DNA of 62,612 nucleotides, from the NCBI GenBank assembly GCA_900290305.1, contig OMOG01000773.1:1011-63622 (forward strand), in the 5' to 3' direction. Position 1 is the stretch's first letter. Each line of letters opens with the position of its first letter. The translations under genes and the position numbers were made by a program. The DNA is from Candidatus Sulfopaludibacter sp. SbA4 (GTDB lineage Bacteria > Acidobacteriota > Terriglobia > Bryobacterales > Bryobacteraceae). Under the pieces are notes generated by a model, which had not been told where the DNA came from, did no database searches, and saw nothing but the letters and a program-made list of their open reading frames with translations. Below are positions 1,549 to 52,638 of the stretch, piece after piece.

Positions 1549-2833
1549 ATGGCTGAGAAATACACGTGGACGTTTAAGGCCCGGCTTCGTTCCAGGGCAT
1601 TCGGATGGCGGGGTTCGGACCTCGCCTGCCGGCGCTTGAAGGAAGCTGTCGCGGAGACCAAGAAGGCCGCTAGAAAAGATCCCCGTGGCAGCCGGTGACG
1701 GTGTCGTGAGTCTGATGGAGAGGATCTGGCCAGCCTTCCAAGACGTCGATACTTCGTCCGGCGCTCTCGGCAGCGCGGTGTACTGGGCGCAGGATGAATT
1801 GTTGCCGATCGCGATCGGGGCTCCCGCGGACCGAAAGACTCGGGACAAATGGCTGGACCGCCTCTGGCAGGCAATCGAGGATGATGGCGTCGATTACCTT
1901 TTCGTGGTTGGAGACCGATGGGGCAAGCTATGCGATTCCCCTGAAGTTGCCTCTTCCTGGGCGGACCGGCTCCTCGGCTTGCTCCGGACCGCCTGGTCCG
2001 ATCCACGGCCGGGGAACTATGTTCGTGGAACCAGCGTCTGCCTCTCCAGCCTGCTGGCGGCGGGCCGCCACCAGGAACTGCTTGAGGTGCTGGCGCTTCA
2101 GCGATTTCCATTCTGGCATGACCGCAAGTTCGGCATGCAGGCGTTGGCATCCGAAGGCCGCATGGATGAAGCGCTGGCTTATGCGGAAGCTTCCCGTGGC
2201 CTGAATCAGCCGGATACGGCCATCGATGCGGCATGCGAGAAGATTCTGCTGGATCTCGGACGAGTGGATGAGGCGTATGATAAGTACGCCTTGACTGCAA
2301 ATGGCTCATCAACAGGTCTTGGCACGTTCCGGGCGATCGTAAAGAAATATCCGGGCCGCGACCCGAAGAAGATCCTTTTGGATCTAGCCAGATCGAGTGG
2401 CGAGTCCGGCCGGTGGTTTGCCGCGGCGAAAGACGCCGGCTTCCTCGATCTCGCCCTGGAATTTGCCAACACGGGCCGCACCGATCCGCGCACGCTCAGC
2501 CGCGCATCGCGCGACTTGCTCAAGAGAGACGCCCGGTTTTGTCTGGAGGCGGGACGGCTCGCAATCCAGCGAATCCTCGAGGGGTACGGCTACGAACTGA
2601 CTGGCATGGATGTCATCGATGCCTACAATCACTTCATGGCTGCGGCGCAGACCCTCGGGATCGCTGCGCAGGCCCGCGCCGACGTGCTGGCCATTGCGAC
2701 GAAACACCCCGGAGCGGCCAGCGATATTCTCATCCGCCAGTGCCCGGTAGATTCTCAGGCATGTGAGGCGCCGGGGAAGGCAATCGAAACGGAGCCACGG
2801 ACATGGACAACACGAAGCCCCACGAGACATTGA
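1549..2833 (+). pseudogene. TPR-like hypothetical gene with a one-base frameshift near 1681-1684
   Basis: The long reading frame (382 codons from a GTG at 1685) lacks its natural start. An ATG at 1549 opens another frame that encodes a plausible N-terminus (MAEKYTWTFKARLRSRAFGW...) and stops just after 1684. Removing one C from the CCCC run at 1681-1684 joins the two frames and gives a continuous protein of about 427 residues. The main body is helical and repeat-like, with features such as RLWQAIEDDGVDYLFVVGDRWG. I recognise it only as a TPR-like hypothetical, of a kind often found beside SWIM zinc-finger genes. The frameshift could be real or an assembly error. The 3' end overlaps the next gene by about 30 bases. 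Confidence 0.7.
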
Positions 2834-3726
2834 GCAGGCCCATCGCCGAGAGCGTCATTGCCAAAATGAGGCGGCATAAGCGGGGGATAGCCGCCGGCAT
2901 CAAACATCTCATCGCGGGCCGCGCCATGGCGGAAGAGCTGCAAAAGACAGTCGTAAGCCAGAAAGAGCTTGCGGGCTTCGACCCGGCTCACGCTGCCTAC
3001 GTCTACACCCAGAACCAGGTGTCGGTCATGTCGGAACAGCTCACGGCCTTGAAGGAGATGGCGCCGTTCGTGGACATCCTCTCCAGGGCCGAGGACCTCT
3101 ACATGACGAGTTCACCGCCGATGAGCCCGTTGACCACATCCTACTTCACCTGCTGGGCGTTTTTCGATGCTTGTGCGGGGCCGGCCAACGAGACCATCGG
3201 CACCACCATTCTGGAGGCCGGCGCGGCCTTCGGCATGCGCCCCGAGCTGTTGCGCCGGGTCCGGATGATGCAGGATTCGCGAATGGGCTTCTACATCCAT
3301 CGCGGCAGAGAAGGCCACGTGAGCATTCTCGAGGATCTCGTCACCGCTGCCGTTTACCGGGCAATGGTTCCGGCAGGCTACAGCGGCAGGAAGAACGAAA
3401 ACTGGTATGTCCGGTTACTTCGGCCGCCAATCCCCGGGGGCAAGGAACATGTCGTCTTCACGACGCCATACATCGTTGTTCATCCGGACTTCGCCGAATG
3501 GTTGGCGTACTTCCGCCGTACGTTCCCCACCACGGCGGGCTTCGACGACTACGAGCGCCACATGAAATACGGGCCAACCAGGGAATACTGGAACGATTAC
3601 GTTTTCGAGGCCTACGTGAACTACCAGACCGACGCGATCTTTCTCGCGGGCCTTCCCGACATTCCCGAGAGCCGCCCTCATTCCCGGATATCCGAGGCGA
3701 ACGGCTGGAGGGGCCCTGATTTTTAA
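2803..3726 (+). CDS. hypothetical protein, 307 aa
   Basis: I do not recognise this family. The product is soluble, without signal peptide or membrane segment. It has a basic helical N-terminal region (about 1-65), a middle helical part with a Thr/Ser-rich loop (MTSSPPMSPLTTSYFTCWAFFDAC, near 103-125), and an aromatic C-terminal half (YERHMKYGPTREYWNDYVFEAYVNYQTD). It starts inside the 3' end of the preceding gene, so the two are probably co-transcribed. Codon use and GC content match the neighbours, which supports a real gene. No function can be assigned. Confidence 0.65.
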   Translation: MDNTKPHETLSRPIAESVIAKMRRHKRGIAAGIKHLIAGRAMAEELQKTVVSQKELAGFDPAHAAYVYTQNQVSVMSEQLTALKEMAPFVDILSRAEDLYMTSSPPMSPLTTSYFTCWAFFDACAGPANETIGTTILEAGAAFGMRPELLRRVRMMQDSRMGFYIHRGREGHVSILEDLVTAAVYRAMVPAGYSGRKNENWYVRLLRPPIPGGKEHVVFTTPYIVVHPDFAEWLAYFRRTFPTTAGFDDYERHMKYGPTREYWNDYVFEAYVNYQTDAIFLAGLPDIPESRPHSRISEANGWRGPDF

Positions 3727-3787
3727 TCCAACGTTAGGCCGGAGCGACAAGAGGGGGAGGTGGCAATATACGTGGAGCGGAGGCTGC

Positions 3788-3886
3788 CAGGCGGTAGAAT
3801 TGTCTTCGAGCCATGAAGACATTTACGATCGCGGTCATCGCCGGCGATGGCGTCGGAATCGAGGTCATCCCGCAGGCCAAGCGCGT
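3788..3886 (+). pseudogene. promoter plus first 25 codons of the dehydrogenase (copy B)
   Basis: These 99 bases match 10151-10249 with a single visible substitution (TTT for TTC in codon 4). They carry the untranslated leader (GGCGGTAGAATTG...), the ATG at 3813 and the first 24-25 codons of the intact dehydrogenase. Similarity stops sharply after GCGCGT, and the frame then runs into unrelated sequence, ending at 4004. It is a truncated duplicate of the gene start, not a functional gene. Since it includes the leader, it may still promote transcription into the gene at 4001. Confidence 0.9.
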
Positions 3887-4000
3887 AGGCGACCAGTTGC
3901 TGGCAGTTCACTCTGTATCACACGCGCCTCAAAGTTCCGCCACTAAGGCAAAGACAGCTCCTCGATTTCGTGTGGCAAACGACTTGCATAGCCTTGGCCC

Positions 4001-4378
4001 ATGACAACTCTGCCCAAGCTCCTGATCTTCGCCGCTGTCCCCATCTTTGCCCAGACCGGCGAGACTATCGACCCGGCGCGGACCCTCTTCGAAACTGGCG
4101 CCAAGCAAGAGACTGCCGGGAACCTGGATGGCGCTAAGACCGCTTTCCTAGTCCTAGCTTCGGTCTATCACGGTGATCCGTACGCCGAGAGAGCGAAATC
4201 CGAGCTCGCGGCGATCTGTCTCTTCAACGAGGCGGAGTTCGAGGTTCGAGGTGGCAAGCTGAAGGACGGATATTCGACCTACCGGCAAGTGATGCGAATC
4301 TTTGAGGCGAGCCCCTTGGCTAAACTGGCAGACGACCGGGCCAAATCGCTCGGCATCCCTCCAGACCCAAGACGGTGA
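4001..4378 (+). CDS. small secreted TPR-like protein
   Basis: A 125-residue product with an N-terminal hydrophobic stretch and a likely signal-peptidase site (LLIFAAVPIFAQTG). Two helical repeats follow, resembling tetratricopeptide or BamD/YbgF-type units (ARTLFETGAKQETAGNLDGAK... and AERAKSELAAICLF...). It is probably periplasmic or outer-membrane associated. It lies just downstream of the truncated dehydrogenase start at 3788-3886, whose frame it overlaps by four bases. It is short for this type of protein and may itself be a remnant of a longer TPR protein. Confidence 0.55.
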   Translation: MTTLPKLLIFAAVPIFAQTGETIDPARTLFETGAKQETAGNLDGAKTAFLVLASVYHGDPYAERAKSELAAICLFNEAEFEVRGGKLKDGYSTYRQVMRIFEASPLAKLADDRAKSLGIPPDPRR

Positions 4379-4515
4379 ACTTGGACGGGATGGTGCCTGA
4401 TGCGGATTGATCTGCCTTCCACCGCTGGTGCATTGGGACGGCCTTCTGGAGTCGTAGGCGGCTGGGGTATTTACCGGTAACGCCGTTTCGCAACAACTGT
4501 CGATAGAATTGGGTC

Positions 4516-5187
4516 ATGGCGTCGCAGAAAGCGGACCTCCATGTCCAGATCGTACGGTTCGTCATGGATCACCAACCTCCGATTGTCGCGTGTGAGCTTG
4601 TTGACTCTATCGGTCGCCGGCACACGTTCATCGACAAAGTATGGGTGTTCAGCGAACAGACGCTGGATGCTCAAAGCGAGTATCCCCAGGCTGGAGTGAT
4701 CCGCTGCGCCGTGCTGGAAATTTGGCGTGAAAGCGGAGGGCGAGAGCTGGTCAGGATCAACACGGCTGACCCTTTCCAGATCGAGTCTACCGAAGGGCTC
4801 TCGGAGTTCATCGTGCTGCGGGATCAGGTCTCAGCGTCATCAAGCCCCGTCAAAGTACGGTTTAACGCCGTCTATCGGCCACAACCACGGTATTTGTCTT
4901 GGACTCTTCTGCATTCCGTCGCGGTGTCGGGAACCGTTGTTGGTTTGCAGAACCGAGCCGAGCAACAGGCACGGTGTACTAATCTCTGCCGCACCATGTT
5001 GCGATGCCTCGTAACGTGCGAAGAGAATCGCGCGACGCGCCTTCTCGACGTAACTCTCGAACATGTCCACAGTCTACTACCCCGCAGCAACCACTCCTTT
5101 AGGGACCAGACCTCAAGTTTGAGGCAAGCCAGCCCCAGTCGTGAAGACGAAGCATTCATGCCACACAATCTGCGTCAGTTGTCGTGA
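4516..5187 (+). CDS. hypothetical protein, probably with a 3' end altered by rearrangement
   Basis: The first 105 or so residues (from MASQKADLHVQIVRFVMDHQ to about FIVLRDQVSASS) have the look of a small conserved soluble hypothetical domain rich in acidic and aromatic residues. The remaining 115 codons lie opposite a clear Clp N-domain fragment on the other strand (4840-5070) and have poor protein character, so they are probably read-through into foreign sequence. The natural 3' end is therefore likely lost near 4850. The first part may still make a folded small protein. Function unknown. Confidence 0.45.
   Translation: MASQKADLHVQIVRFVMDHQPPIVACELVDSIGRRHTFIDKVWVFSEQTLDAQSEYPQAGVIRCAVLEIWRESGGRELVRINTADPFQIESTEGLSEFIVLRDQVSASSSPVKVRFNAVYRPQPRYLSWTLLHSVAVSGTVVGLQNRAEQQARCTNLCRTMLRCLVTCEENRATRLLDVTLEHVHSLLPRSNHSFRDQTSSLRQASPSREDEAFMPHNLRQLS
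4840..5070 (-). pseudogene. truncated Clp N-terminal (ClpA/ClpC-type) domain fragment
   Basis: Reading the minus strand from the Met at 5064, the product begins MFESYVEKARRAILFARYEA and continues to a region aligned with the ..EHLLLG.. helix. This closely resembles the first 35-40 residues of ClpC N-terminal repeats (typical form MFERYTEKARRVIFFARYEA). Similarity then stops near 4935 and the frame ends at 4840. A full Clp N domain is about 140-150 residues, so only the first helix pair remains. It overlaps the 3' half of the 4516 frame in antisense. No AAA module or DNA-binding domain is present nearby. Confidence 0.7.
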
Positions 5188-30469: not shown

Positions 30470-30476
30470 CCAGTAG

Positions 30477-30531
30477 CACAGGCATTCCTGCCTGTGTTTT
30501 GCCCGCGGTGGCACAGGCATTCCTGCCTGTG
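30477..30531. repeat. two copies of the CACAGGCATTCCTGCCTGTG hairpin
   Basis: Perfect 8-bp stems CACAGGCA/TGCCTGTG with loop TTCC at 30477-30496 and 30512-30531, separated by TTTTGCCCGCGGTGG. They follow the stop at 30469 and precede the convergent end of the reductase gene. The same module, reversed and with loop CGAA, forms the array at 49397-49656, and one copy with loop GGAA lies inside the glycosyltransferase gene at 48872-48891. Confidence 0.9.
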
Positions 30532-48338: not shown

Positions 48339-49385
48339 TCAACCTAAAGCCGTAGCGTCGAGGAACAGGCGCGCCACGCGCGGCGCATCGAATTGTTCCA
48401 CCCACCGCGCACCGGCGCGGCCCAGGGAATCGCGCGTTTCGGGCGAGCGGTAGAGGCTCTCGATGCCCGCGGCCAGGGCCTCGGGGCTATCGGCATCCAC
48501 CAGCAGCCCGTGCGGGACCACCTCCGGAATCGCTCCTGCCCGCGCCGCCACGATGGGCTTTTCCGCCGCCATGGCTTCCAGCAGCACGATGCCGAAGCCC
48601 TCCTGCACGCTGGGCAGGCAGAAGACATCCGCGCGCTTGTACTCCGCTGCCAGTTGGGCGAGCGGCACGTGGCCCAGCCAGGTCACCGTGCCCGCGAGAT
48701 TCAGCTCGCTTGACAGGCGGTGCAAGGCGGACGCACACGGGCCGTCTCCGACGATGCGTACTTCAAGTCCCGGGATGCGCTCCCGCAGGGCGGCGGCCGC
48801 GCGCAGCAGCACGTCCACCCGCTTGCGGCGATACAGCCGCCCGGCATACAGTACGGTGAAGCGGGGAAGAACACAGGCAGGAATGCCTGTGCTACCCAAC
48901 AGCCGGCGCCACTCGCCCAGGTCGATCAACTCGGGGACCACGCGCGGGGCTGCGCCCAGCCCGTAAAGCTCCTGCGCGCGGCCGCCCGAATAGCGGCTGG
49001 TGACCAGCACCAGGGCGGCGCGATGGACGTGGAGACGCTCGCGCCGGGCCTGCATCGACATAGTAAGGCGAGTCAGTCCGGATTCGAAGCGAACCTCGTC
49101 GGCGATGACCCCTTTCAACGACGCCACGTGCGATGGGCATCCGGCCGCGATGCGGTAGCCGTCCATATCGAATCCCACGGTCAGGTCGAATCCGTCCGAG
49201 CGCCGCAGGGATCGGTTGAAGAGCAGCCGCTGCGCGGTGTAGATGGGCAGCGAGCGGCGCGGCGTTTCGAATGCGACGGTGTGGCCCATCGCCTCGAGCG
49301 CCCTTGCCAGGACGTAAATTCCGACGTAGGTGCCGCTGCCGCGGCGGACGTCGAGCGGGGTCGAGGTGAGGAACCGGAATCGCAC
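48339..49385 (-). CDS. GT4-family glycosyltransferase with a hairpin repeat inside the gene
   Basis: About 348 residues from the GTG at 49385 (VRFRFLTSTPLDVRRGSGTYVG). GT-B fold: N-terminal acceptor domain, then RFTVLYAGRLYRRKRVDVLLRAAAAL and EYKRADVFCLPSVQEGFGIVLLEAMAAEKPIVAA, the nucleotide-sugar site with the E-x7-E motif. Between the domains the peptide GSTGIPACVLPR is encoded by a copy of the CACAGGCA hairpin (48872-48891), inserted in frame. Retaining glycosyltransferase for an unknown glycan. The upstream frame runs into the hairpin array and is not coding. The 3' end overlaps the convergent 47053 gene by 17 bases. Confidence 0.85.
   Translation of the reverse strand: MRFRFLTSTPLDVRRGSGTYVGIYVLARALEAMGHTVAFETPRRSLPIYTAQRLLFNRSLRRSDGFDLTVGFDMDGYRIAAGCPSHVASLKGVIADEVRFESGLTRLTMSMQARRERLHVHRAALVLVTSRYSGGRAQELYGLGAAPRVVPELIDLGEWRRLLGSTGIPACVLPRFTVLYAGRLYRRKRVDVLLRAAAALRERIPGLEVRIVGDGPCASALHRLSSELNLAGTVTWLGHVPLAQLAAEYKRADVFCLPSVQEGFGIVLLEAMAAEKPIVAARAGAIPEVVPHGLLVDADSPEALAAGIESLYRSPETRDSLGRAGARWVEQFDAPRVARLFLDATALG
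48872..48891. repeat. hairpin element inside the glycosyltransferase gene
   Basis: CACAGGCA-GGAA-TGCCTGTG, a perfect 8-bp stem with a 4-base loop. It is the same element as at 30477-30531 (loop TTCC on the other strand). Read in the gene's direction it adds about nine residues (STGIPACVL) at a domain-linker position. Confidence 0.9.
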
Positions 49386-49396
49386 TGGCAAAACCA

Positions 49397-49656
49397 CACA
49401 GGCACGAATGCCTGTGCCACTTGGCAAAACCACACAGGCACGAATGCCTGTGCCACGGGGCAAAAACCACACAGGCACGAATGCCTGTGCCACGGCGCAA
49501 AACCACACAGGCACGAATGCCTGTGCCACACAGGCACGAATGCCTGTGCCACGGCGCAAAAACCACACAGGCACGAATGCCTGTGCCACTGGGCAAAACC
49601 ACACAGGCACGAATGCCTGTGCCACGGGCAAAACCACACAGGCACGAATGCCTGTG
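49397..49656. repeat. array of eight CACAGGCACGAATGCCTGTG hairpins
   Basis: Eight identical 20-base palindromes (stem CACAGGCA/TGCCTGTG, loop CGAA; TTCG on the minus strand) start at 49397, 49433, 49470, 49506, 49529, 49566, 49602 and 49637. Spacing is 35-37 bases except one of 23. The linkers vary slightly (CCAC-N-GGCAAAAC). The array fills the whole gap between the divergent glycosyltransferase (start 49385) and queC (start 49678), so both leaders or promoters must pass through it. It is not a CRISPR: linkers are near identical and unit size is too small. Confidence 0.95.
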
Positions 49657-49677
49657 CCACTATGATACTGGAAGCGA

Positions 49678-50349
49678 ATGACGAAAGCGGTATGCCTGCT
49701 GAGCGGGGGCCTCGATTCCTCGACCTGCCTGGCGCTGGCGCGGCGCGACGGATATTCCTGTTACGCGCTGTCGTTCGACTACGGGCAGCGCCACGCAATC
49801 GAGCTGGAAGCGGCCGCGCGTGTGGCCGCCAGCCTCGGGGTCGAGCGGCACCTGGTGGCGCGCATCGGCCTGGATGCGTTCGGCGGGTCGGCGCTGACGG
49901 ACAACATCGCGGTGCCCAAGGCGCGCTCGGCGGAAGAGATGGGCCGCGGGATTCCGGTGACGTACGTGCCGGCGCGCAACACCATCTTTCTTTCGTTCGC
50001 GCTGGCGTGGGCGGAGGTGCTGGAGTGCTCCGACATCTTTATCGGAGTGAACGCCCTCGATTATTCGGGCTATCCCGATTGCCGGCCCGAGTACCTGGAA
50101 GCTTACCAGCGCATGGCGAACCTGGCGACCAAGGCCGGGGTGGAGGGCCGCACGCACGTCACGATCCACGCGCCCCTGATGCACCTGAACAAGGCGCAGA
50201 TCGTGAAGCTGGCGCAGGAGCTGGGGCTGGAATTCTCACTGACGTACAGTTGTTACGACCCCGGCGCGGACGGGCGGCCGTGCGGGCAGTGCGACGCGTG
50301 CCTGCTCCGGCGCAAGGGATTCGAAGAGGCGGGCATTGAAGATCGCTGA
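49678..50349 (+). CDS. queC: 7-cyano-7-deazaguanine synthase QueC
   Basis: A 223-residue PP-loop ATPase: [18 protein letters not shown] (pyrophosphate loop), [19 protein letters not shown] and the zinc site at the C-terminus ([28 protein letters not shown], Cys ligands). Converts 7-carboxy-7-deazaguanine to preQ0 in queuosine or 7-deazaguanine DNA-base synthesis. A TATGAT element at 49661 could be a -10. queE overlaps its 3' end; queD and queF are not in the window. Confidence 0.95.
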
Positions 50350-51994: not shown

Positions 51995-52638
51995 GGGGGA
52001 GGCCGACCGCAGGTAAATCTGCGGTTTTCCGGGTGGGCGGGGGGAATCTAAAGGAGTTATGCGTTGCGACCGCAGGGAAATCTGCGGTTTAGATTCCGGG
52101 TAGTGGCTCAGTTTGCTCACCAGCAAGGTCCTCCCAGTGTTCGTTTTTGGGACTAGGTTCGTTTGGCAGTACGCGGTGTGCAGCGGCTGCTTTCCCAATC
52201 GCTTCAGGGGATGAATCAGGCGCTGCGACACAAGTTGTGTCGCCGGGAAAAGTCGAAGTGGTTGAAAACAAAGCTCGGGCATCCGGGTTGGTGACACAAG
52301 TTGTGTCGCCGGGGTGTCTCGGCGGCGGGATGTTCTTCGATCGTGGTTCGGCCATTTTGTTTGAAGACCGCTGGTTCGCGGGTTTGGCTGCGATTCCGGT
52401 GCGGATCGGCGTTCGCGAAAGTGGGCGAACGCCGCGAAGTTCTCTTCCTGATTAAAAGCTAGCAGACGATCATTGCGATGGTGGCTGGTGAGAGGAACTA
52501 AGTAATTGAAAACAGGGCGAAAATATTTTTCGAAAATCGGAACCGAGAAGAATTTTAGGGGTTGCGGCCGACCAAACGTGAGGAGGGGGATGCGGTTTTG
52601 GGGCCGCGAAGTCCGATAGAACTCACTATTGCTACGTT
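51995..52638. repeat. repeat-rich gap with two families of paired hairpins
   Basis: About 640 bases with no convincing gene. Family 1: ACCGCAG-(6 nt)-CTGCGGT at 52006-52025 and 52069-52088. Family 2: GCGACACAAGTTGTGTCGC (19 bases, 9-bp arms) at 52225-52243 and a near copy at 52291-52309. Each family occurs twice about 65 bases apart. The last 200 bases (52440-52638) are AT-richer and carry no visible structure. A plus-strand frame across the repeats (52147-52455) has no protein character. Confidence 0.7.

Follow-up and report, generated by a model that had tools for sequence, protein, structure and literature searches.

The gap between a family 4 glycosyltransferase gene and a divergent queC gene of Candidatus Sulfopaludibacter sp. 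SbA4 holds a head-to-tail array of eight identical units that, judging from their sequence and genomic context, are very likely REP elements of a GTRG-tagged REP/RAYT family, most likely mobilised by a RAYT of the HuH/Y1 type. We assign the element to such a family and not to a new regulatory RNA because REP-flanked RAYT genes occur in this and in other genomes. The array is a real and largely ordinary kind of element, although as a one-direction array it is unusually large.

Structure of the array

A pattern search of the window (the whole stretch of 62,612 nucleotides analysed here) recovered eight exact copies of the 20-nt palindrome CACAGGCACGAATGCCTGTG at 49397-49656, all in a single orientation as originally predicted and each beginning at the first base of a unit in Table 1. 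With up to three mismatches allowed, 11 occurrences were found in the window versus 0.01 expected. Start-to-start distances are 36, 37, 36, 23, 37, 36 and 35 nt; the spacing of mostly 35-37 nt initially described holds, with six of the seven intervals in this range and the remaining one at 23 nt. The repeat unit proved longer than the palindrome alone: it comprises 24 nt (CACAGGCACGAATGCCTGTGCCAC; GTGGCACAGGCATTCGTGCCTGTG on the minus strand) and ends on the right with a conserved CCAC, with which the array reaches 264 bp. Units are joined by near-identical linkers of 3-17 nt, and the loop of all eight is TTCG on the minus strand, closed by an A-T pair. From the glycosyltransferase GTG to the queC ATG the gap measures 292 bp, most of which, and not the entirety as first stated, is filled by the array.

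The eight units were also an incomplete listing for the window, which contains three further copies (starts 30477, 30512 and 48872). The one located within the glycosyltransferase gene encodes part of the peptide STGIPACV, in a linker whose length varies among glycosyltransferase homologues. Elsewhere in the window, two similar stretches at 52089-52355 both encode PGDTTCV in one frame and possibly represent a second repeat type.

Table 1. Coordinates of the REP array, its neighbouring genes and the other REP copies in the window.
Feature	Position	Strand	Remark
Head-to-tail array of 8 REP units	49397..49660	-	GTGGCACAGGCATTCGTGCCTGTG on minus strand
REP unit 1	49397..49420	-	
REP unit 2	49433..49456	-	
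REP unit 3	49470..49493	-	
REP unit 4	49506..49529	-	last base common to unit 5, no linker
REP unit 5	49529..49552	-	
REP unit 6	49566..49589	-	
REP unit 7	49602..49625	-	
REP unit 8	49637..49660	-	
Family 4 glycosyltransferase gene	48339..49385	-	start codon abutting array
Glycosyltransferase start codon GTG	49383-49385 (plus-strand numbering)	-	minus-strand gene
queC (7-cyano-7-deazaguanine synthase)	49678..50349	+	other side of array; ATG at 49678
Single REP	48872..48895	-	GTAGCACAGGCATTCCTGCCTGTG; in frame in glycosyltransferase gene
REP copy	30473..30496	+	4 nt past stop codon, between convergent genes
Second REP	30508..30531	+	head-to-tail with 30473..30496

The REP unit and its copies across the genome

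Read on the minus strand, the unit consists of GT[A/G]G followed by CACAGGCA-TTCN-TGCCTGTG, i.e., a GTRG foot, a perfect 8-bp stem and a 4-nt loop. In PMC3733652 and PMC6006769, GTAG-type REPs are defined by such a GTRG foot and short perfect hairpin. The position of the foot (0-2 nt 5' of the hairpin), a stem within 7-20 bp, a loop within 2-5 nt and a dispersed high copy number all agree with this type, as does a cognate RAYT gene that has the same element beside it.

The genome-wide count of the element that the original prediction had proposed yielded 237 exact copies of the 24-mer GTRGCACAGGCATTCNTGCCTGTG, against 0 for a reversed-pattern control, and about 311 copies of the 20-nt core (free loop base, up to two mismatches) in the 10.1-Mb draft genome. 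These copy statistics derive from pattern searches and about 109 fetched contexts. The 36 other genomes searched from the same family contained no exact GTRGCACAGGCATTCNTGCCTGTG. The foot C[CT]AC (GT[AG]G on the other strand) follows nearly all fetched cores, though it was absent from the search pattern; conservation ends sharply at this foot, and on the other side after a T and a weak T-rich stretch. Invariance of the core in the alignment of fetched copies is by construction, since fetching was restricted to exact or near-exact cores. At the fourth loop position the copies of the genome differ, and the TTCG allele accounts for 28 of the about 311 copies, including the eight of the array. In the literature searched for this sequence and for acidobacterial REPs we found no description; the element may match one of the Opitutus families of PMC3733652.

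RAYT transposases linked to the REP

RAYTs cleave and join single-stranded REP DNA. Y1_Tnp proteins are present in the genome, and the suggestion to look for a REP-associated tyrosine transposase turned out to be the right lead. In one RAYT gene, on contig C289, an exact REP precedes the start by 10 nt and a second lies in frame within the coding sequence, with none within 450 bp on its 3' side. Its product contains NHVH (HuH), FWQDDSYDR (FWQ) and YIENNP (YIxxNP), the motifs by which RAYTs of the Y1 transposase family are recognised. It scores 33.6 bits against Pfam PF01797 (Y1_Tnp, cut-off 23) and 70 bits against NCBIfam NF047646 (REP-associated tyrosine transposase), just under the curated cut-off of 80, which is passed by the RAYT of locus L276 (88.5 bits). 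A search of solved-structure sequences with C289 gave no match. The genome encodes a second RAYT (contig C290; L059, 1792-2608), which has a different GTRG palindrome, of the GTAGCGCGGGCACTCGTGCCTGCC type, on either side, in line with each RAYT having a REP of its own.

RAYTs accompanied by the same REP were found in Bryobacteraceae (L286), Acidobacteria (L276), Verrucomicrobia (L154), Ignavibacteria (L183/L273) and Planctomycetota (L277), and in all of these but L286 the REP was found on both sides of the gene. Phylogenetic analysis, in a tree lacking several linked RAYTs whose HuH motif was missed in trimming, placed C289 and L286 as sisters (support 99/95) and the Ignavibacteria and Planctomycetota RAYTs in a distant clade. 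The Ignavibacteria and Verrucomicrobia proteins share about 33% identity with C289. A single origin of all RAYTs associated with this REP is unsupported, as three label changes are needed on the tree. A fixed RAYT cleavage dinucleotide was also sought in the linkers by eye and proved inconsistent across arrays.

Distribution in other phyla

Public genomes carrying the same 24-mer include those of Bryobacterales/Bryobacteraceae and other Acidobacteriota, of Gemmataceae, Phycisphaerae and other Planctomycetota, of Opitutaceae and other Verrucomicrobiota, of Kapaibacterium/Ignavibacteria, a Victivallis MAG and others. Copies per genome range from 1 to 155, single matches being possible binning errors because the records are metagenome-assembled. 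The 24-nt REP is letter-perfect across at least five phyla, while adjacent RAYTs are ~31-33% identical and tandem expansion in one direction, in place of inverted pairs, is seen in this lineage. Tentatively, and with the odds rather against it, the REP and its transposase may spread horizontally as a unit, the recognition sequence being very strongly constrained.

At several loci (L277:1-3231, L154 ~2214-4856, L317 and L183/L273) a RAYT with REPs of this family shares one uninterrupted frame with Eco57I/PglX-type DNA methylase domains. These frames span three phyla, the Planctomycetota, Verrucomicrobia and Ignavibacteria. The RAYT is inserted between the GxFYTP and DPAxGSGAF motifs in three loci, and after DPAVGSGAF in the Ignavibacteria locus. 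An in-frame transposase within a restriction/defence-type methylase gene is odd, and a literature search for such an arrangement found no paper.

Origin of the array

The sequence points to probable local growth of the array out of a single insertion, because all its units carry the rare loop variant and lie in one orientation. Eight independent insertions would all bear TTCG with a probability of about 4e-10, given an allele frequency of 28/about 311. The array cores show 0 differences, versus 8 edits in the six full linkers (Fisher 2e-6). Three relatives with the same glycosyltransferase/queC pair (L106, L107 and L108) have a gap of about 35-60 bp, measured by inspection, that contains no REP. 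The shared rare allele, the single orientation and this REP-free gap together back the recent amplification put forward in the original prediction. In another relative (L105, 2523-3150) this gap is larger by ~600 bp of additional sequence, which is perhaps a gene, so that the gap may take insertions repeatedly.

We propose one initial REP insertion in the short gap, after which local tandem duplication copied the REP and about 12 nt of its flank head-to-tail. Slippage or unequal recombination would have driven this, with CAC microhomology at the two ends of the first unit as a possible starting point. The element itself would exist because it is a self-propagating repeat.

Such an arrangement recurs in the genome, where REP pairs within 33 nt comprise 28 head-to-tail, 4 head-head and 1 tail-tail pairs, the eight-unit array being the longest among the head-to-tail groups listed. 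A further genome, in which the same REP is present in 155 copies, contains 2 head-to-tail pairs and many head-head pairs ~50 bp apart. REP families usually form inverted (head-head) dimers. The dominance of head-to-tail pairs is unusual for REPs and counts against our reading, as do the lack of a REP within 450 bp on the 3' side of the C289 RAYT and the NCBIfam score of its product just under the cut-off.

Transcription across the array and alternative readings

Between the glycosyltransferase start codon and the array lie 11 nt; the mRNA of this gene must therefore start in the array or cross it. The claim made for both divergent transcripts stands for the glycosyltransferase, whereas the queC transcript may or may not cross the array: on the queC side there are 17 bp that include an SD-like GGAAG and a -10-like TATGAT. 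A promoter scan returned no match. The minus-strand leader folds far more stably than shuffles (z -6.85), in an optimal structure that pairs neighbouring units with each other, and this strand holds 9 terminator-like matches versus 1.1 in shuffles, most with poor tails. A by-product would be a predicted structured leader on the glycosyltransferase mRNA, with as many as eight hairpins and a possible lowering or buffering effect on expression. The TTCG loop noted on the minus strand is correct, but its classification as a very stable tetraloop is not: the extra-stable cUUCGg requires a C-G closing pair where these units have A-U, the fourth loop base is variable, and UUCG is found in 28/about 311 copies. 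A special role of UUCG is unsupported, since it is not conserved and the C-G closing pair is missing.

The gap of relatives L106, L107 and L108 contains a perfectly palindromic -10-like sequence, TATAATTATA, a possible symmetric divergent promoter. We considered TATAATTATA as a shared symmetric -10 of which the TATGAT beside unit 8 would be a remnant, but its distance to queC is not conserved. With the scan also finding no promoter, the idea is only a lead.

The folding score, the identical stems with varied linkers and the proximity of the start codon would all suit a regulatory RNA leader, whose eight hairpins are selected to control glycosyltransferase or queC expression. We consider this improbable, since relatives with the same gene pair have no REP at the locus and about 300 copies are scattered over unrelated sites, some within genes and some behind stop codons. 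Moreover, in the best fold neighbouring units pair with each other, which would be expected of any set of identical palindromes, and an Rfam search of the window returned no family. Equally doubtful is an array of protein-binding sites (an operator cluster, or gyrase/IHF-type sites as in E. coli BIMEs) that would structure the chromosome or insulate transcription. Gyrase, IHF and Pol I are known interaction partners of REPs and BIMEs (PMC2817692) and the spacing is roughly regular near 36 bp, but nothing specific marks this locus, one spacing is 23 with the others drifting from 35 to 37, and other arrays in the genome are spaced differently.

The copy number itself could be an assembly artefact, the true locus having fewer or more units. 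The genome is a draft (790 contigs, 84% completeness), the array exceeds typical short-read length, and the copy number of the 264 bp rests on this assembly. Nevertheless, the linkers differ from one another, which does not fit the simple collapse or expansion of one identical unit, and the genome has many other head-to-tail groups; we regard an artefact as unlikely. Palindromic repeats at regular spacing also recall a CRISPR-like array, a reading that can practically be dismissed given near-identical linkers of 3-17 nt in place of long unique spacers, single copies dispersed genome-wide and the link to a RAYT.

Implications

Assignment to a REP/RAYT family adds a canonical GTRG-type family in a large genome and in several phyla for which there are few accounts of such repeats, together with linked transposases open to biochemical testing. 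It also warns against taking arrays of this REP for regulatory RNA leaders, and against annotating in-frame copies (TGIPACV, HRHECLCH, AGMPVP) as protein features. The head-to-tail layout and the presence of the same REP beside very different RAYTs offer a handle on how REPs amplify and spread.

Comparison with known systems

The element closely resembles the GTAG-tagged REP families of Di Nocera et al. 2013 (PMC3733652), which share the GT[A/G]G foot, a 6-9 bp stem, a short loop, hundreds of copies, clusters, stop-codon-adjacent and in-frame genic sites, and a linked RAYT. That survey lists GTAG repeats from Proteobacteria, Cyanobacteria, Chloroflexi and the PVC group, and refers to Acidobacteria only in connection with TIR-flanked transposases. 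As in REPtrons/TnpAREP (PMC6006769, PMC8266576), a HuH/Y1 transposase is flanked by its cognate short REP, an in-frame REP lies inside the transposase gene, a WQ motif occurs in the region reading the GTAG foot, and foot and stem of the perfect-stem REP make up 12 nt. The in-gene REP of C289, however, precedes the HuH motif instead of lying between HuH and Y. Higher-order clusters of REPs are also known as REPINs and BIMEs (PMC3116915, PMC2817692). These are built from inverted pairs or alternating orientations, whereas 8/8 units of the present array point the same way. Lastly, the Class 3 TnpA repeats of Solibacter usitatus (PMC6006769) are likewise several hundred palindromic copies in an acidobacterial genome with a Y1 transposase, but they have a CnGA foot and atypical structures, unlike the canonical GTRG foot of the element described here.
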